From the NCBI RefSeq assembly GCF_910596095.1, contig NC_056535.1, positions 20,290,505-20,354,504 of the forward strand: 64,000 nt of DNA, written 5' to 3'. Numbering within the stretch: position 1 is the stretch's first letter; every line of letters begins with the position of its first letter. This document shows positions 3,601 through 63,412 of this stretch, piece by piece. The notes under the pieces were generated by a model that saw only the letters and a list, made by a program, of their open reading frames with translations, searched no databases and was not told the origin of the DNA. A program made the position numbers and the translations under genes. The stretch comes from Thunnus maccoyii. Its lineage: Eukaryota; Chordata; Actinopteri; Scombriformes; Scombridae.

Positions 3601-6600
3601 CATGCTAAGGTCAATTATTACTCTTTGTATTATGAATTTTTAATCCATGAAGGTTTTATATTTGTAAAACTTTCCCCTGAGCCTAGAAAAGCAATTATGC
3701 ACCAGGCGAGCAATTTCCATTTGAGTGAATAGCTGCCATCTTTGAAGCTGGTAACCAGGTCCTATAATACTTCCATGCATTATATCTGCTCAACATCAAC
3801 ATGCTCGCATCATCATTGTGAACATATTAGCATTTAGCTCAAGGCCATTCGCAAGGCTGTAGACTTTTACTCTTGTTTATATGTCTCTCTTAAGTCCCAA
3901 AACTTTATGGAAGTGCAAAACTAAATTAGTGGAATACCCCTTTAAGTTAAATGACAACTTGTAAATCTGCAGTTTTCTCCCAACAACAGCGATGTGTTTA
4001 TGTACAGTATATGTTACAGAATGAAGAGGATGTGGTGTGACATACTGGAGACTGGTCAGGAGACCATGATATGAAGATCCACTCGTAGCCCTGTGCATTC
4101 TGGGAATCCAGGCGGTATAGGATGTAACAGGGCTCCTGGTCGTCCAGGAGAGGAAGGAGGAAGTGATCATAATCCTGGTCCCAGCTCTGTTCTGGCTCTC
4201 TGTAGGCCCCCAGCACCAGCTGCTCTGAAAATCAGACCACCACTCATCACATACCTTACCCCCCTACATGAACGGATCCAGAACTGACTGACCTAAACAC
4301 TGAAAAGACTGACTATGACTAAGGACTGAGGAAACTTGAAGATACCAAGAACTGAACTTTGTTACACCATAATGGACTCTTCTTCAGGAGAACTTAAGAC
4401 ATCTATATGGTTTATTAAGAGGTTGAATTGGTTTAAGTTACTTATTGTTACAATGTTTATCTGCTGAAATATTGTGGAGAAAGATGGGTTTTGTATAGAT
4501 GTACTGTGAAACAGTTTAATTGCACCTGAAGAAGGTATATTTTTGTCAAAAATGCCAGCTTAGGCTGTATCATTTTTATTATCTTACATAAGAAAAGTTT
4601 TAATACAATTGTCTCTTGAACCTGCTCTCTGGCTCCAGCTACTCATTGAGTCCTTTACTTATCTTCAACTCCCCCATGACACTGGTCCAATATTCCTTAA
4701 ACTAGCCTGTGGTCATTAGGCGTTGCAGGGGTTACATAACAAATCATCCTCAGTGGTCTTGCCATAATCAGTATCAATCATGAGATTGGCCAGCAGCTGT
4801 CCTATGAATGCATCATTGATGATTTCGCTTCTAAAAAATCTAGGAAGCAAAAGTTTTGAAGACGGTGATGATGATGATGATGTTAATAATGCAGCTAATT
4901 TCCTTAAATTAAAATAAGGTTTTTATATATAAAAAGTAGCATTTGGTCTCATTTATATGCATATGGAATATGATTCAGATTCAGCACACGGCCCCCCAGA
5001 AGGCTAGAAAATGGCCTGGCATACAGTAAGAGTCACTCTGGTCCACAGTCATGATCAAGTAGTAACGGATTATTATAATTTGATTATAAAAAGCAGCTGT
5101 AATCTAAAGTTATACTTGATATACATCAATTATGACGTTTTGGTTGGTTAAACGTGCTACCATGGAATAGTGCTTTCAGAATGAATGTTATTTTACCTCT
5201 CAGATGTGATTATTCATATAGATTTGAGAAATAAATTTTTGTCTGAAATGTATTTACACAGAAATGTAGGATAAAGGAAAAAACAAACCAACCAACCAAC
5301 CAAAAAAGTGTGGGCTGAAGGTTCAGCATATTGTCCATATCCGTTTTACAATACATAACCTTGATGACAAAAACTAACACCAGTCAAAATGTATAATCTT
5401 AATCCTGATGCTCATTTTTATATTTGTTCTTTGGAGTTCATTAAAGTATTTTAAAACATTTTTATACAATAGCTGCACGAAAATACCCTTTTCACTGAAA
5501 TACAAAAAAAAAATTGTTTCTTAAACATGCATATTCCTCTTAAGTTATATTGATTTTCTCTCATTTTAAACAAACTTTAGACACTTTCAGGTAGTAATTT
5601 CCTTTTGACTTTATATATGATCATTGACTAAGTCTCTAAATTTTAGTGTATGCATTTATGATTACATTACGACTAGTGTACATTCATGTGGTGGCTCCCA
5701 ACCTAATCCATGTTGTCAAAAGGAAAAGAGAACAGTATCTCAACTCTTTTAACTTTGGTGAACTCTGCCAGTTATTTTCTCTATTAATAGGTTCCCTGCA
5801 TTGGTCTATAAAATGTCAGAAAATTGTAAAAAAGCCCAAGGTGACATCTTCAGATTTCTTGTTTTGTCCGACCACAAATCCAAAACCCAAATATATTCAG
5901 TTCACAGTGTCACAAAACAGAGAAACACTGCACAGCTTCACATTTGAGAAGCTGGAATTTTTGCTTGAAAAAATGACATACGATTAATCAATTATCAAAA
6001 TAGTTGCTGAATAGTTTTCTGTCAATCGACTAATCGTTTCTCAACCAGTATCAAAGCTTCATTGCTCACCACTTCATGTGTAAAGTCACTTAGCTAAAGT
6101 CAGTCTCAAAACCTCATCTGAGAGTCTGTGAGGTCTCGCTGTTTGCTCGCTGTATTTGCTCCTTGTGCTGTGGTGAAAGAAGGCAAAGACCGACCTCTGG
6201 GTTAAAAATATTACTGGAGTTTCTGACTGAATTGACAGGACACTGGGTCAACTCTCTGAGTGGAGCCGTAAGAACCTAACAACTTAATGGAAACACTGAC
6301 AGCGGGGATTAATGAAATATACAAAAACGTACACATAAACCTAAAGTTGGATGTCCTTGTGGGGTGCAGGGGGATTTCCTGACTGTCTCTTGGGGCAGTT
6401 GCTATTCTGAGCTGCAACACATTCCAGCTCTGCACACATACATACTTTCCATCAGCCATTCTCTCTTAGTACCTGTGTTCACGGGACCATGTGAGTATTA
6501 AACTGCATGTAAATGACATATATAGGTGTTGTGCATTGTCTTTGACTTCTTAAAGTTTAAAACAAAGCTGTAAAATCGTAAGATATGAGTTGTCAGGGGT

Positions 6601-35779: not shown

Positions 35780-36412
35780 TTTTAAAGGACATGTTCACAG
35801 TTTTTCAAGTCTGTCTTAAACAATAGTCAGATGCCCAAATGAACATTGAAATGGGTTTTTCTTGCCAAAATCATTACTCCTACTGGACATTAGAAGATCC
35901 TTCATAATGCACTTACAACATAAGTGGGAGCCAAAATCCACAAGCCTCCTTCTGTGCAAAAATGTATTTAAAAGTTTATCAGACACTAATATGAAGCTTC
36001 AGCTGTCCAAATGAGTCAAATCAAGTAATTATCTTTTAACATTTAGTCTTTTTAGTGCCAAAGTCCCTCTTTGTGTTACTATACTTCCACCACAGATCAG
36101 CAGGGAAACACAAAGAGGGAATTTGATGCTAAAAAGACTGTAAATGTTGAAAAATATCTCATTTGGACTGCTGAAGCTTCATATTAGCTTAAGATAAACT
36201 TTAAAATGCATTTTTGCACAAAATGACTGTGAACACACTGTAAATTTTGGCCTCCATCACTTACATTGAAAACACATTTGAAGGGGATCTTTTAACAGCC
36301 AGTATGAACAGGAGGAATGATTACAGTGAGGAAAACCTCTTTCAGTGTTCACATGGGCCTCTGACTGATGTTTTAAGACAGACTTGAAAATTGTGAACAT
36401 ATCCTTTAAGGA
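35780..36412. mobile_element. Foldback MITE, copy 2
   Basis: It has the same ends and order as the copy at 28196: ttttaaaggacatgttcaca at the left and attgtgaacatatccttta at the right. The inner pieces 'tcattactcctactggacat', 'acaagcctccttctgtgcaa' and 'aacaggaggaatgattacag' also recur. The arms again fold on each other. It lies in the same orientation, 7.6 kb away, on the other side of mon1b. Confidence 0.75.
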
Positions 36413-36454
36413 CCTATAAAATCAAGCGTTACTAACGTTTAAAGAGACTCTTAC

Positions 36455-36552
36455 CGGCGTGACTGGTGTCATTTTCTGTGTCTGATTTCAAGGGCTGATC
36501 TGGACCAGGGCAGCCTGAGCAGGAGCCTCCTTCCTCACTGTTGTAGTCTAGC
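36455..36552 (-). other. Orphan exon-like segment
   Basis: On the minus strand an acceptor-like (ctgagag) start and a strong donor (GCCG then gtaagag) bound 98 nt that is open in one frame. It reads LDYNSEEGGSCSGCPGPDQP then LKSDTENDTSHA. I do not recognise the peptide, and no partner exon was found between mon1b and brpf3. It could be an alternative 3' exon of brpf3, an exon of an unseen gene, or chance. Confidence 0.3.
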
Positions 36553-37139
36553 CTCTCAGAAATGAAAACTTATGTGTTTAAGCAGCGTTTATCACCAGTA
36601 ACTTCCACTCAAACAGCCAACAAAGTGTAAATACCAGTTTCAGGATACCCACATTTAAAATTAGAGCTGTGACATTTAACAAATACAGTTCCAAATTAAA
36701 GGTAAATATATCAGTACAAATTTGTCTGAATTTGTCTAACAAGAAGAAAAAACAGTTAAGTGAATGCCTGGCTTTCCATTGACAGACTTACAGGGTATTT
36801 CAATGGAGTACAGTGTCTGATATCCTGAACACAAATACTGTAAACAACATGGTTACTTAATATTTCCTGATGAGTTGAAGAGGATCACGTAAACACTGAT
36901 CTGCACACAACTGATTATACAACTATCATGTCTTTCAAATTCAGGTAAAAAGAGGCTGTGTTTCTCAAACAACACTTGGAGACGCTGAAAGAAATTTTGG
37001 ATACATTTGAACTTCCTGTTATCTAATCTTCTTGTTGGATTCTATCTTCAAACCTTGACTTGAGGGAAACTGAGTCATAAATTGATCAGACAAGATATGA
37101 ACTCTTAAAAAAAAAAAAAAAAAAAGACATACAATGCAG

Positions 37140-38614
37140 TTGTTTCAAACAGCATTTATTCTTGTGTGAGAAAATATTGTCTCAGGCAGATTATAGATCT
37201 TGCAGTACAATTCAAATGACAAGATCAAAAAAATCTCCTGTAACACCTAAGAAAGAAAAGCCTCCAGCAGGCGAGCGCGGTCACTGCTGCCTACAGAGCT
37301 CTCAGGTCCTGTGCCGCCTCACTTATAGAGAATATGTTCTGACATGTTGGTGAAGACCATCACTATTACAAAGAGCTACTTAGCATCATACATAAATCTT
37401 CTCAATATTTACTTTTTTTTTTAAATAACACTCTCAACTGCCACAAATTATAAATTAAAATCTAAATTTGATTTTTGCATTCCTTAAATTACTTCATGTA
37501 AGCCAATATAAACATACATTTACATATTTACAGAACTATACACATGCACCTTAACTACACTGAGCTCGTATACATATATGTATATAATATACACACACAC
37601 ATACACATTTTTGCCACTCATATGGCTCCAGGCGTCGCTAATTTGTTTTTCTTTTTTTCCCTCCAAAACAGACTGATTGTGCTTTTCAAGTCATTTCAGC
37701 CAGATTTGCGAACAATTTGCAAGTTCTTCAGTGAGTGAGTGATCGCAGTAGACTTTGTCATAACCACAAATATAATCAGCTTCACCTCTTTAGTGGCTTC
37801 ACATCTTACTAACCAAGTAGCTGCACATTCTAGTTATCAATACAGTTTCACAATATGGAAAAATAAGTAAAGACCTCTAAAGTCCCACCTACAACACGTC
37901 ATAGCTGGACTAAAATATGAAGAATATTTTCACTGGCAGCCTACTGATTAAAATTTTCCAGTATTTCTCTTAATTTGAAATTGTCTCAACGCTTACTTTG
38001 ATGTATAATTCGAGCCAATTTCACCGAAAAGGCTAAATTTGATTCTGTGGATCTTTAATTTTCAGTGTTTCCTTGTGCACTTTTCTGGAAAATACCTGTT
38101 TACATCATATTATCAACAATTTTCAAAGGCTAAAATTTACATTTTTTTTGTCCATAGCTGTCCAAACCAACCCTGTGAGTCCAGATATGAAGTGAACGTT
38201 CAGTGAGACTTCCACACTTCATTAAACACAGTGACATTTCAATGGCAAATACAATCTAAATATGTTTTGAATCAAGACAATCCCTTTGACAATTAAATAT
38301 TTACACTTCTCTCATTTAAGTCTTGACTCACTTTGGCCTAAAATAAAAACTTTATATGAACACATAGCAACAGTGGTTGTGTAAAACCTTTTTAAAAAAA
38401 TCTCATGAATATATATGTGCAGATTCATCTACGAAAATGTCTTCAAGCGCCTTTTCTCTCACTCCATTGAAAACCTTTTAAAATCAGAGCAACAGTTTGA
38501 CGCAGAAAACCATCAGAAACATTTTACTTCCCCGCCTTTTTAAGAGTATCAATGAAGCTTCTATACATATAACCAGGCAGCCGGTTAAAGATGATAAAAT
38601 CTTGAAACTAAAAT
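37140..38614 (-). other. brpf3 3' UTR
   Basis: This is AT-rich non-coding DNA downstream of the brpf3 stop. A minus-strand AATAAA at 37155-37160 could end the transcript. A poly-A run at about 37108-37126 lies just beyond. Confidence 0.45.
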
Positions 38615-50960: not shown

Positions 50961-53900
50961 ATGCAAACTAAGACAGTCAGGATGCTGTTCGGCCTCTTTG
51001 TATTATCTGCTGGATTCTTCTTCAATGTGGGAATTTGCACTGCAGGTAAGGAACTTGTTGCAGAAATAATACTAACACACTTACCAAATCTAACCTGACC
51101 TGATCCGTTTTTATCTCAAACTGTAATGAACGTGAGTGTGCACTTATGTAGAAGATGGTCTGGTTAACACCATAAGAACGTTCAAAAAACATGTTTTATC
51201 TGTGGATACTGATATGTCAAAGTTTGACCCGGTCACTGCATTTGTAATTCAGTATGTGGCAACTTGCTTTTTTTCTCTGCCAAATTCCTCGTGTTTTCAC
51301 TGCGGGATTTAGTTGAAATTTCTCAGGCTTGAAAAGACATAAATACATAAACTGTCAGCTCAGTTCAGCATCAAAGTGTAGCGCCACATCCTGTCCAACT
51401 CTTGTAGAAAAACAGAAAAGGAAGCAAGCCAGTTGACATTCTCAAAAAAAAATGGTAATAAATCAACTCTATGGAGCAAACAAAGGCCCTGTGTTTCAGA
51501 GAAGCCAAAAAGTGACAGGGGCTTGAAGAGCTTGTATACGTGTCATCTTTTGAAAAGGAGGATCTGATGGTTGTCAGGATCACCCCGTGGTGATGGATCC
51601 CCAAGGCCTTGGCCTGAATCAAGGCTTTTGATACTCTTTGACTTCCCTCCCATCTCACAGTGCCATGGCATTGAGAGTCTTTGAATCAACACGCTGCTCT
51701 AAATAGATTGTGTTCTACAAACTGTTTTCAAGGAGGAGACGAGAGCAGCCAGATCTGTAGGATACCGGAAGCCAGTTGTGACTAGAAGGTCAATACATGC
51801 GCCCTGAAATTCACCTCAGACATCTCTGCATGTCAGAGTAAAATCTAAGGATGGCCAGCGCACAAAGAAGTCTTTGATTTCGCTAAATTTAGGATGGACT
51901 TCAGCTGTGAAGAACTTTTGAGAGAGAAAAAAATATTTCAGTGGCTCTGTTACTTTAATGTTTTCCGATTATTTACTCCAGTAATTCCCAACCGTTTTCG
52001 GCTTGTGACCCCTTAAATTGAACCAATGTGTGGTTCATCACAGTCCTTCCCAGATTTGTCCTATTTGAAGATTTTTTTAGAATCTTTTAGAGAAAAGCCA
52101 GAAAAAATAAACACATGTCTGTAGCTGATATTTATTCTTTCTTATTCCTTTAATCATCTACTGACCTTCCTTCCTGACTTTCAAATATTTACCGTGCTTG
52201 TATCTAAAAGTTAACATGTTCCTTACTTTTTCCCCTGAACATCAATGCCGTCAGAGCTGAGAATTACAACGATAAAGGTAGTTCATTTGTTTATGTCAAG
52301 CCTATTGTAACTCTGAATACAAAATAAACGATAATAGAAATTCCACTGATTATCTTTTAACATATTTCCATTTAGCAAGAGCCGTATACAATGTCCAAAG
52401 GCTCACAACTGGAAGGCTTTTGTATGGACCTGCTGTCTGAAATTGCCAAGAAGCTGGGCTTCAAGTACAAAGTGCAGCTGGTAAGAGACAGTTCATACGG
52501 CCGACAGGATGAGAGCGGGAACTGGAATGGGATGATCGGAGAGGTGGTGAGAGGGGTGAGTACATGACAGCGGACATTTGGAGGGGTCAAAGGGCAGCTA
52601 ACTACTCTGCAGAAGCTTGAATATCCCAACTGGCATATGTGACTCATGATCAATGCATTAAAAATACAGGTATATGTGTAACCTTAACAGGGATGTTGTT
52701 GGTAAAAATATTGAATTATTTAATATATCTTACATGTCAACTGTATTTTTGGATTCTTTACAGGAGGCAGACCTTGCAATTGCTCCGCTGACTCTCACTG
52801 CAGCTCGGGAGAAAGCGGTGGGGATGACCAAACCGTTCATGCAGACGGGAATCAGCATTCTGCTGAGGAAGGACATCTCAGAGGGAGCAGGCTTCTTTGA
52901 TTTCCTGACCCCCTTTACAGCAGAGACTTGGGTCGGCATACTAATTGCCTACCTGGGGACAGCTGCTTGCATCTTTATAGTTGCCAGGTTGGTGATGCAA
53001 GTAGTGTCATTCTTTTAAAAAGTGATAATTATTATTTATTTATGGATGTTTACTGATGTGCTGTGAATTTAATCTTCATGTTTGTGGATATTTCCACATA
53101 TTTTGCTGGCAGTGGAATCCCTTTGAGTGCTGTCACATTAATAATTAATATTTTTATGCAAATACAGACTCAGCCCATGTGAGTGGAGTCAGCCTCAGAG
53201 TGAGCAGAACAGATTCAGTCTCATCCACAGCCTCTGGTACACAGCTGGAGCTCTGACTCTGCAAGGTAAAAAGCAAACACTTTGTATGTCAAAACAATAC
53301 AAGAAATAGAGAGGAGAATCTTCACACTCAACTAAATTTCTCACTTGCTGTTCTTTTTTTCTCTCAGATTTCTTTTAGATTATTCATATTTTTTTCTTTC
53401 TGCAAAATTTCTCCCTCTTAGCGTTTGACTTTTTTCTTTTTTTCTTTTTTTGTGTTGTCAGGTGCTGGTCCTCACCCCAGAGCTCTTTCAGGACGTGTCA
53501 TCTGCTGCAGCTGGTGGTTATTTTCCATTGTCCTCTTGGCTTGTTATTTCTCTAATCTCAGCTCCTCTAAGAGCTCTGAGTCCACTCACCTGACGGTGAA
53601 AGGGTTTGAGGACTTGGCCAATCAGGACACAATTCAGTATGGCTGCCTGGCTGGCTCCTCCACACTTGCTTTCTTCAGGGTAAATATGAGGATCTTTATC
53701 TCCTTGTAGTTAAGATTGAAAGACAGTTTGTACATTGGATCACTGATGGATCACTTATCTCACAGCTGTTTCTATTCTCTTTTATTCTTTTTTTCCTTCA
53801 TCCAGAATTCAAACAACCCCGTGTACCGCAGAATCCATGAACACATGGAGAGGACTAAGAGCTTTGTGTCATCTATGGATGAAGGAATCCGGCGTGCAAA

Positions 53901-58300: not shown

Positions 58301-61300
58301 GACTCTGAGAAGCTGACGTTGGTTAAAACGGACCAACTCACCCGGCTTCAGCTGTAAGATCTGGTTCATAACCGTCTCGTTGAGGGATGATACCTGCCAA
58401 CTGTTCGCAAATGCTGCCAGACAGAAAAAAAACAAAAACATTAAACCTCAATTCCCCAAAACTGTGACATCCATGGTAACACATATGCAAAGATCTCAAG
58501 TTGGATGTTTACTTTACTGTGATGATGCTTGAATTTACCTTGTGTTTCTATGTCATGCACACGGACAGATTTTGTGTACTTGACCAGGTCAGACAGAGCT
58601 CGGGACAGCCTCATTGTTTTCCTCTTCCTGAGGGGAGAGTTGTAGACATACAAGTGTTATAAATAACACAGAGAAGATAAGATACCTAATACTACTCAAT
58701 TCAAAGATTAGCCTTACTTGGGATGGTAAACAATTTGTGTCCTTTCCCTGCTGCCGCTGTAGTCCGATTCTCCATCAGACACAACTTTACTTTTCACTCT
58801 GATTCTCTTTTTCCTCTGAAAAAAGAGATAAGTTACTTACAGGGGAAGTTTTTTATACAACTAATCTCAACAGAAAGCTGTCACATTGATTATTTAAACT
58901 TTTTGTTCAAGCGGCAATGAAAATCATGTATTAGGAAGATGTAAAAATAGGAGAAAGTAATCAAAGCTGACCTTTCGTTTGAAGCTCCTTATGATCGATC
59001 TGGCAAATCGCCTCTTCTTTTTAGGTTGATTGGCAGAGGTAGCACTATTCTCATCCTAAAATAGTCCAACATAGTGTAAATATGTGTATCCATCAATCAA
59101 TTGGTCTACCGTTCTACCTATCTATATTTTTATAGGTATCTTTCACTTGCCTGTGAGTTATCCTCTTCATCATCATCATCCTCTTCCTCGTCCCCAGTGT
59201 CTTCATCAGACACATCTCCTTCCTCTGCATCAGAATCAAGATTTGCAGGCAGCTTCTTTCCCTGAAAAACAACAACCATTTATTAAAACTTTTCATGTGT
59301 GACAGTGTTTGTGTTTTACTGCTGTATAACATGCTGTCGGAGTCAACTTTACCTTGACTAAAACTTTTCCCTTCAGGATTTCAGGGGAGGGCAGCTTCTT
59401 GCATTCATGCACATTGACGTTGGACAAGTCCAGTTTGTCCTGTAGCACCTCTTTCAGGTACTCAGCCATCTTTTTCTGCTGAGGCACAGTGCAGTGGTTC
59501 TCTATGGACAAGATCACTGGGTACCTGTGGGGGGTGGAGTGATGATACCTGAGCCACTGAGCCAGCGCGACATACAGGCATGATGATTTTTACAGGACAA
59601 AGGAGCACTTACGGTGATTTGGTGAAGGCATATTTGTTAATTGTTTCAATGACGTCTTTGAAGAGGATTTTTGATGTCAAGGTGTAACCATGATGGATAA
59701 TGGGCTCCCCGTCTGGCCCATCCCAGCAGTCCACTAAGAAAAGAAAAAAGAAAGACAGAACCACAGACACAAGGATGATTGAATCACCACATCTGTACTG
59801 TCATGAAATTACAGCGATGACAGCTGAAGTTCTGTTTTTACTGGCTCTCACCCTCCACACAGCGACAGCCAGCCTGGAGAACATAGGCGTACATCTCCAC
59901 TCTAGACTGAGACAACAGCTGGTCTCCTGTCAGGTAGGTGTTGTGCGATGTGGCGATGAAGTAGTTACACAGAGGCTGCGTCATGTCCTGGTTCACCTGG
60001 TTGTGATCAGGGTTGAAGATATCACCTGCAGGACTTCGCATGTAGTTGGTGAAACCTGAGGGAAAAATGTTTCAGACCCAAGTGTTTTTGTAATCATGTA
60101 TGCTAATAGTCATACCTATAGTGACAGATGTGTCCCTGTTGATGCTATCAATAATTGTCAGTATGCATTATTAAATCAGTTGTAACAAGCAAGTTCCTCG
60201 TACCATCAATACCCAGGACCATACGCTGCAGGTTCTCAGGACATGGCTCAAATTGGGCCACTATGTCAATTAGATACTCTCTGGATAGACCTCGCATCTG
60301 CAAATAAAATAAAAACTTTTGTATCAACTAATCCAATATTTTACACACAAGGGAATAGTTCAACATTTTGCTTTCTTGCCCAGAGTTAGATAAGAGGATC
60401 AATAACAGTCTCAGGTATGAAGCTACAGCCAGCAGTCGGTTAGCTTAGCTTAGCATAAAGACTGGAAACAAGGGGAAATAGCTAGCCTTGCCCTATTCAT
60501 ATTTGAATAGGGCAAGGCTAGCCCTGCCAACACCTCTAAAACATTTTATCTACTTTCCTCAATCTGTACAAACACAACAATATTTTTTGGACAGGCACAG
60601 TCTCTTATGGTTTGATTTTTGTGCGGATATAACAAATGAGACATAAAGAGTTAATTAGTGAAGTGCGGATAGGTGGATTTTGTTACCTTTGGACAGGGCC
60701 AGGCTAGCTGTTTCCTCCACTTCCAGTCTTTATGCTAAGCTAAGCTAACTGGCTGCTGGTGGTAGGTTCATATATACCATATAGAGTGTGTAACTGAACT
60801 TCTCATCTAACACTCGAATAAGTGTATTTTCCTAGTATCATATTATTCCTTAAAAATATATACACACAATAGGGCAACTTTTCCACTTGGCATGAAAGAT
60901 TGGTTTGAATACTTTTACACTTTGTTGTACCTTCTGTTCATTTTCCAGAAAGCGGGCAAGGTCGTGTAGATCCAGGACTTCTTTTTGATTGCTGTAGGAG
61001 ATCATTATCAGGTAGAGGTCTCTGCGTGTGGAAATCATCTTATAGAACGAACAGAACTCTTCAAATCCCAGAGAGCCCTGGTTCTCGTCTGTGTCTGCTT
61101 CCTACAGATAGCCACAAAAGTATTTTATGAGCAAGGCTCTCTCAGTACTTGTGATTTCAGATAACCACCCCACCAGAAAGAAAATATGTCCCACATAGCC
61201 ATCTGAAGGATATATCTCTAAAACCAACCAATATGATGAAGTAAATTTCACAGGGACTGTCATCATCAGGAGGGGAGGACATTGAGCTTCTGAACCGATG

Positions 61301-63412
61301 CAATATTGCAGTGCAACAAAAGCCATCTGTTCAGCGGTGGCCATATGGCTTTCCTGTGGCACTCTCCTGCACTGTTCTACCAAAATACTGTATATACATG
61401 TTGTCTGCTAGCTCTGCCTCTGTTCTCTTATCTGACTGCTTCTCTGGCTGAAATAATGTGACGATCACATAGGCCTCTTAAGTAAACAGCAAGGATTTTC
61501 CACCTTCTTTTAACTTAAAAGCCTTGATATTTTAATTTTCAGCCTTAGTTTTACAATGAACTAACAAACCTGTTTAGCCATTTATACCTTCTAAATCTGC
61601 TTCTTAGCTTCTCCTTATGAACTTATGTAGCTGAACACAGAGTGAATCATGTTTTGTAGCCATATAGCCACAACTGAATGAAAAAACATTTCCAATTGTT
61701 AGGCACTGTATTATATATACTAGATATTCAAAACCAGACATACAGAAGTATTAAACAAGCAGTGAGGTAGCTTTTATGGTGGATTATGCACATTAAATCT
61801 ATTATAAATTGCATGATTAAGCTTTGAGGATATGCAGTCTTACTTGGAACATCTGCCTGACTTTCTGCTTGGGTAAATTCACGTTGAGTTTGTGGAGCAG
61901 CTGGTGAACCTCTCCAATGCTCAAGGTGCCATCTCCATTTTTGTCGGCCTCAGAGAAAGTCTGCTGTAACCACGTGAAGCTGCAGTCAAGGCTGAACTAC
62001 ACAGATGATGATCAGTTCAGATTTATTCTCAACATCTCACACAAATGGCCTATTTGATTTGTTTTCTTTTACATAATCAGTTGAATATATAGTCATGTAT
62101 TTGTATCATTTATAAATTGAAAATATATGAATGTATTAAGGATATTGATCACGGGTGCGCTGCCTCCGGGCCAAACTGTCTTCATCACTAATACCAGCCA
62201 TGAGGTATTTCAGCCCAGTGATCCACGTGCGGGTCTCCTCTGCGTTGGTGGAGACCAGGTCGAGGGACTTCACACGCTCTCCGTAGTAAATGCTGAAGCA
62301 GCAGTTTGGGTCGAAGCGGTTGTCTGCGTACCGCCTGAAGATCTCTGACTTTTTCCCTTCGCAGACTTCATGGATGGAATCAATAGTTACTGAAACAGAT
62401 GATCAAGAACAGTTCTGATGGTCATTTAGAGCTTGCCTTCATTTTAAATTTAGTGTTTGTTTTCTATCACTGATTCATGAAGAAACTGTTTTTCCTGTGA
62501 TTATGAGCAGGACTCACTGAAAATATGATTGATGATTATTTGTAATTCTATTAAGTAAATTTCCATCAGTGTTTGAGTTTAGCACAGTATAATCTTTTGA
62601 GTAGATATCTACCAGGCTATAAATGGTGCACAATTAAATCTATTGAGTTAAGAAGTCAGTGGAATATAACTTTATTAAGCATCACTGAATCAGTAGAGAT
62701 AAACATCATGACATGGACAAAAACTGATAAAATGCTACAACAAACATTTACTCAAAGTAACTTTTGCTCAACTTCTACCCAAGTCAAACCATGCTACTAA
62801 GCTTTCCGATTTCATAGAGGTCAAAGGTCAACACCTACAATATCACTAGTGTACAAAAACATTATGAAAAATAGAAAAAACAGGCAACTATTTAGCGTTT
62901 TAACTTTTTATAGCCTCTCTCTCCCATTAAGTCCTGTATAATGGAGTACAACCAAACTTGTATGTGCACATGTTGCTTTAATTGCCGTAACAACACACAA
63001 CAAGGGGTTACAACCAAAGGTGACGTTCAATCGATTTATCTATTCCTCTCTTAATTGTTCTTAATTGTTTTTTTAAAATCTAATTAGCATATTAGTGATG
63101 TTGATTGACTTTACAGTAGTTAGACTACTCTCTTGCCATGTGATCAGCGCACAGTGACTTCATCTTGAGGGCTGCATCAAACAAAAACCAACACATATTT
63201 AACAAGTGATAAACACATATTCATCAGATGTTTGGTTCTGAAAATTCAGAACATTGATGTCTTACTTTTGGCCTTGTCATGTTTCCTGGAGGGCTGCCAC
63301 CGGATGCAGGACTTGTGCTCGTCCAGGTAAAAGAATCGGACGAGTCCTTTCTTCTTTCCCTTCAGTTTGGTCATCTGAGTGCCGGTCTGCATTGTGCACA
63401 TGCACCTCTCCA
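55333..63412 (-). CDS. plch2: Phospholipase C eta-2-like, 20 exons, 5' end outside window
   Basis: It hydrolyses PIP2 to IP3 and DAG; eta-class PLCs are highly Ca2+-sensitive and neuronal. Exons: 63266-63412, 62146-62389, 61844-61973, 60931-61101, 60204-60297, 59852-60055, 59613-59733, 59353-59524, 59151-59261, 58972-59055, 58718-58815, 58539-58627, 58228-58413, 58002-58109, 57795-57919, 57582-57666, 57348-57494, 56639-56718, 55484-56552, 55333-55349; about 1159 aa in window. Order: PH domain ([20 protein letters not shown]), EF-hands ([12 protein letters not shown]), X-box with catalytic His ([16 protein letters not shown]) and second His (IIHHGYT), acidic/basic X-Y linker, Y-box ([18 protein letters not shown]), C2 ([32 protein letters not shown]), Pro/Ser-rich tail. 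[17 protein letters not shown] fits PLCH2, not PLCH1. It ends DQTTV, a class I PDZ ligand. The start codon is not visible. Confidence 0.95.
56879..57279. mobile_element. TIR repeat family A, copy 2 (plch2 intron)
   Basis: The left end is taaagtccccatccactc; the right end, on the opposite strand, is taaagatcccctccagac, giving imperfect terminal inverted repeats of about 18 bp. The body matches the interrupted copy at 15753-16500. It is a non-autonomous DNA transposon. Confidence 0.65.
59056..59150 (-). other. GC-AG intron of plch2
   Basis: The exon at 59151-59261 ends TCACAG and is followed by gcaagtgaaag; the next exon begins after ctattttag. AG then GCAAGT is the consensus of the rare GC-AG intron class. 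Phase is kept on both sides (...EEDNSQ then DENSATS). No alternative GT donor keeps the frame nearby. Confidence 0.8.
60350..60850. mobile_element. Foldback MITE with internal perfect palindrome (plch2 intron)
   Basis: The arms are inverted copies: 'gttagcttagcttagcataa' plus 'agactggaa' at the left and its reverse complement near 60725-60760, and 'agttagataagagg' against 'ctcatctaacactc' at the ends. A second, perfect 19-bp inverted repeat with a 4-bp spacer lies at 60481-60522. The gttagcttagcttagc motif marks a widespread teleost repeat. Confidence 0.7.
61974..62145 (-). other. AT-AC (U12-type) intron of plch2
   Basis: The upstream exon ends CGTGATCA and the intron starts ATATCCTTAA, the U12 5' splice site consensus. 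It ends ...CCTTGACTgcagcttcac before GTGGTTACAG. The branch-like CCTTGAC has its A at 61986, 12 nt from the AC end, which is within the U12 range. The splice gives [20 protein letters not shown] in phase. No GT donor exists at the exon end. Confidence 0.88.

Follow-up and report, generated by a model that had tools for sequence, protein, structure and literature searches.

Minor introns occur in 60% of phospholipase C (PLC) genes, according to the accessible part of PMC6865273, and the portion of PMC2603472 available to us makes use of a U12 GT/AG intron lying between exons 3 and 4 of human PLC delta, taken from the database of confirmed U12 introns of Levine and Durbin 2001. In the text accessible from PMC10639083, about 26% of human minor introns are of the AT-AC subtype, and conversion is assumed to proceed almost exclusively from minor to major. 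Since the human PLC delta intron and the frequency of minor introns among PLC genes are published, the kind of intron described here is already known. Our literature search found no papers linking PLCH2 to "U12-type intron" or "minor intron"; as U12 catalogues such as MIDB (named in PMC6865273) and U12DB are not full text, this lack is no evidence of novelty.

Almost certainly, the window, that is, the whole stretch of 64,000 nucleotides analysed, includes a teleost PLC eta gene, most likely plch2, with a U12-dependent AT-AC intron of the minor class separating its PH domain from EF-hand 1; the intron would have been inherited from a PLC delta/eta ancestor. The putative intron occupies 61974..62145 of the minus strand (172 nt, phase 2) and, read from 62145 to 61974, has the ends ATATCCTTAA…GCCTTGACTGCAGCTTCAC (in a longer reading, ATATCCTTAATACATTC…TTCAGCCTTGACTGCAGCTTCAC), with TTCAC as its terminal bases. 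Its 5' splice site ATATCCTT (62138..62145) agrees at 8/8 positions with the consensus printed in the accessible part of PMC2831892, the A of the branch-point-like element GCCTTGAC (61985..61992) lies 12 nt from the final base of the intron, and the 3' splice site AC is at 61974..61975. The first-pass annotation had described this AT-AC 5' site, the AC end and a CCTTGAC motif 12 nt upstream of it; coordinates and motifs were verified, the gene being on the minus strand. The branch element matches TCCTTAAC at 7/8 positions if either A or G is accepted at position 6, and its departures from the consensus, a G at the first position and GA instead of AA, count against the U12 reading, as does AA at donor positions 9-10. 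Pyrimidine content at the 3' end (13/20, against 11-19 in the neighbouring introns) gives no distinction.

Removal of the intron joins the end of the PH domain to EF-hand 1. The upstream coding exon (62146..62389, minus strand) encodes the C-terminal part of the PH domain (Pfam PH_12; paralogue matches of 80% and 69%) and ends in ...RRQRTRDQ, holding the first two bases of the last codon, while the downstream exon (61844..61973, minus strand; Pfam EF-hand; paralogue matches of 79% and 76%) opens with the third base, so that a glutamine codon is divided as CA|G; the donor GT of this second exon is at 61843. The earlier claim that the flanking codons join to a conserved sequence is borne out by a single frame, RTRDQ|WLQQTF, which agrees with nine other loci at the same codon. 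The intron had been assigned to the EF-hand region; its more exact place is the PH/EF-hand linker. The joined protein has Pfam matches to PH_12, EF-hand_7 and EF-hand_like, and an exon further downstream matches PI-PLC-X. This order of PH, EF-hands and PI-PLC X defines PLC generally, and eta identity, like the names eta-1 and eta-2, is presumed from human sequences. PLC-gamma chains in the PDB align to query 3-151 with a span of the same length (149 residues), and this is compatible with the junction; the PDB alignments listed are of calmodulin type only, and many calmodulins score alike or higher through the EF-hands.

The name plch2, proposed in the first pass, is probably correct, with evidence on both sides: the window copy is closer in identity to the paralogue on contig C4 than to that on C6 in 8/8 exon blocks matched by both, and a 121-column tree, whose rooting is unsafe, places it beside the C6 row (83/92). 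Two features apart from the splice site were observed around this gene. A MITE-like inverted repeat lies within a plch2 intron (60416-60772; 52-nt arms, 90% complementary, 253 nt apart) and has an inner perfect hairpin of 19 nt (60481-60522). On the plus strand, opposite to plch2 and downstream of its exons seen, two ORFs at about 52376-53018 match Pfam Lig_chan-Glu_bd, the glutamate-receptor ligand-binding family.

One rival reading, which we regard as very improbable, takes the AT-AC motif for chance and puts the real junction at a U2-type pair close by. Between both exons there are 286 in-frame, stop-free junction choices (67 GT-AG, 74 GC-AG, 57 AT-AC and 88 AT-AG), 16 of which are near the reported ends, with the donor within 30 nt and the acceptor within 40 nt. 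GC-AG pairs make up 8 of these 16, and the frequency of ATATCCTT in the window is about that of chance, both of which favour such a pair; against it, none of the 16 is GT-AG, all eight GC-AG options delete or insert residues in the conserved linker stretch, and the same AT-AC site is found in 2/2 other plch-like loci. Only the reported junction, among the near candidates, produces RTRDQWLQQTF. The 15 best-scored GT-AG/GC-AG choices were likewise rejected, linker residues being lost or added; those of the 67 GT-AG pairs beyond these 15 were counted only. Counting against the reported acceptor, the same donor has other in-frame ends, AT-AG at 61992 or 61980 and AT-AC at 61959; the AT-AG end at 61980 sits 6 nt from the branch A.

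The seven neighbouring introns each have a well-scored GT-AG solution at the expected place. They match the U12 donor core at 0-3 of 6 positions, compared with 6 of 6 for the window intron, and their best branch scores are 4-6 of 8, compared with 7. The margin in branch score is narrow for the intron that precedes the upstream exon (GT-AG solution 63265/62390), which reaches 6/8 and to that extent counts against the distinction.

ATATCCTT occurs five times in the window, both strands counted, with about 3.8 expected, which is not significant alone, and a branch element of at least 7/8 at 9-15 nt before AC accompanies 29 of the 7450 AC dinucleotides in the window. Donor and branch element jointly at the prescribed site would be expected at about 1e-7 per site, given base composition. 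The significance lies in ATATCCTT at an exon end together with the branch element, and in its presence again at this codon in paralogous genes. One of the other four ATATCCTT sites (36399, plus strand) also pairs mechanically with AC ends that have branch-like elements, giving seven pairs within 36399-37573.

Paralogues were sought across the genome (782 Mb in 54 contigs, window included) as regions upstream of PI-PLC-X matches. Such matches occur at 27 places, of which 24 were examined and the weak ones at C15:13.7 Mb, C10:8.5 Mb and C15:9.9 Mb set aside; family names are our assignments, presumed from the readings and from the known families. A phase-2 intron one base before the TGG codon is present in 10/10 plch- or plcd-like loci with both exons found, the window locus among them. 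Nine of the ten read as U12-type, five with AT-AC ends (three plch and two plcd) and four with GT-AG ends (all plcd), branch elements in the paralogues having been judged by eye and unscored. Leaving the window copy aside, U12-like introns stand at the site in 2/2 plch-like loci and in 6/7 plcd-like loci in which it was found.

The plch-like genes on C6 (L012, plch1-like) and C4 (L017, plch2-like) share with the window copy the codon, phase 2, the AT-AC ends and the ATATCCTT donor, and differ from it in length, 995 nt (ends ATATCCTTTA...TTCCTTAACGTGTCTGTGTGAC) and 298 nt (ends ATATCCTTCA...TTCCTTAACCCACCTTGATATCAC), respectively, compared with 172 nt. Their branch element, CCTTAAC, is nearer the consensus than that of the window copy. 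The remaining AT-AC introns are those of L020 on C18 (1116 nt, donor ATATCCTG) and L027 on C20 (799 nt). The U12-type GT-AG introns, in L019, L021, L022 and L024 (151, 152, 414 and 224 nt), all have GTATCCTT and a TCCTTA-type element. The tenth intron, in the plcd-like locus L023 on C11 (L023:7282-7742, GT-AG, 461 nt, donor GTATCTTTTT), reads weakly, and no clear U12 branch element was seen in it by eye; possibly it is a U12 intron drifting toward the U2 type.

Other PLC families depart from this pattern. In the plcg-like locus L015 on C4 (near 6075-6190), the corresponding position, one base ahead of TGG, also holds a phase-2 intron, which is U2-type in appearance (donor GTAAACAAC, acceptor TTTTTTTTTAG), unlike the U12-type window intron. 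In plcg-like L013 (near 1255) the donor GTGTGTGC is in the same phase and U2-type, its acceptor not being found, and in plcg-like L014 the junction was not located. The introns of L015 and L013 are compatible alike with conversion from a U12 intron and with a separate origin. The stretch is continuous in the plcl-like loci L001, L002 and L003, with no intron at the site, and the sequence of L004 does not reach it. Among the beta-like loci L028-L032, exons break elsewhere (after ...FLEKA or similar) in L029, L030 and L032, and thus these loci say nothing on the PH/EF-linker site. The 9.9 kb covered for L025, delta-like from its X-domain reading, yielded no recognisable PH or EF-1 exon, and this locus was therefore left out of the ten-locus count; none was seen either in L026, presumably epsilon-like from the layout of the epsilon gene.

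In a tree of 12 rows (the ten loci with L001 and L003, without L002 and plcg), the AT-AC label requires two changes, a result equalled in 9 of 500 shuffles; the long plcl branch of this tree may be misplaced. From these comparisons it seems reasonably likely that one ancestral intron of the PLC PH/EF linker is preserved in successive states in a single fish genome: U12 AT-AC (three plch, two plcd), U12 GT-AG (four plcd), a drifting copy (the C11 plcd), U2-type (plcg) and lost (plcl).

We regard it as equally improbable that the AT-AC intron is a substrate of the major (U2) spliceosome, in the manner of SCN4A intron 21, another intron with AT-AC ends. The accessible part of PMC2831892 does state that intron class is not fixed by AT-AC ends alone; against this, the window intron agrees with the U12 donor at each of its eight positions and has its branch element at a suitable distance, and the extended donor is kept in paralogues in which the terminal dinucleotides alternate between AT-AC and GT-AG, which fits the expectation for the U12 class.

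The U12-type reading put forward at first is thus upheld, since the motifs, the frame, the lack of a near GT-AG pair, the same-site introns in paralogues and the presence of U12 and U6atac genes concur. The same genome has at least one match for the U12 snRNA gene (131.3 bits, cut-off 53) and at least one for U6atac (132 bits, cut-off 33), these copy numbers being lower bounds because scoring covered the best candidates only. In minor splicing, the U11/U12 di-snRNP recognises the 5' site and the branch element, and U6atac then takes the 5' site. At this locus, the di-snRNP would recognise ATATCCTT and CCTTGAC together, U6atac would replace U11 at the 5' site, and splicing would join CA|G inside a single glutamine codon. 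With the intron retained, the protein would be expected to end prematurely, following the PH domain: the unspliced frame reads Q-Y-P and then stops at a TAA inside ATATCCTTAA. In the C4 and C6 copies the read-through stops come after 11 and 96 codons, and so the immediate stop of the window copy is not conserved.

Judging from sequence, this is very probably a genuine and old minor-class intron common to PLC delta and eta, whose splicing we infer and which would derive from the common ancestor of the two. The window intron is ordinary for its gene family, and existing knowledge of minor splicing is unchanged. Its description fixes the fish plch2 gene model where a GT-AG-only prediction would probably split the gene. 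The series of paralogues at one site is a mild addition beyond the known kind, and the most useful one: these same-site introns form a set in which subtype switching and the conversion of U12 to U2 introns can be studied and, if the succession of states is true, a natural series of subtype change among minor introns and of their conversion to major ones. The closest described system, the human PLC delta exon 3-4 intron, belongs to the same gene superfamily and the same spliceosome class as the window intron, as far as the accessible portion of PMC2603472 describes it, and differs in its termini, GT/AG as opposed to AT-AC; going by exon number, unaligned, it probably occupies the same PH/EF-hand site.
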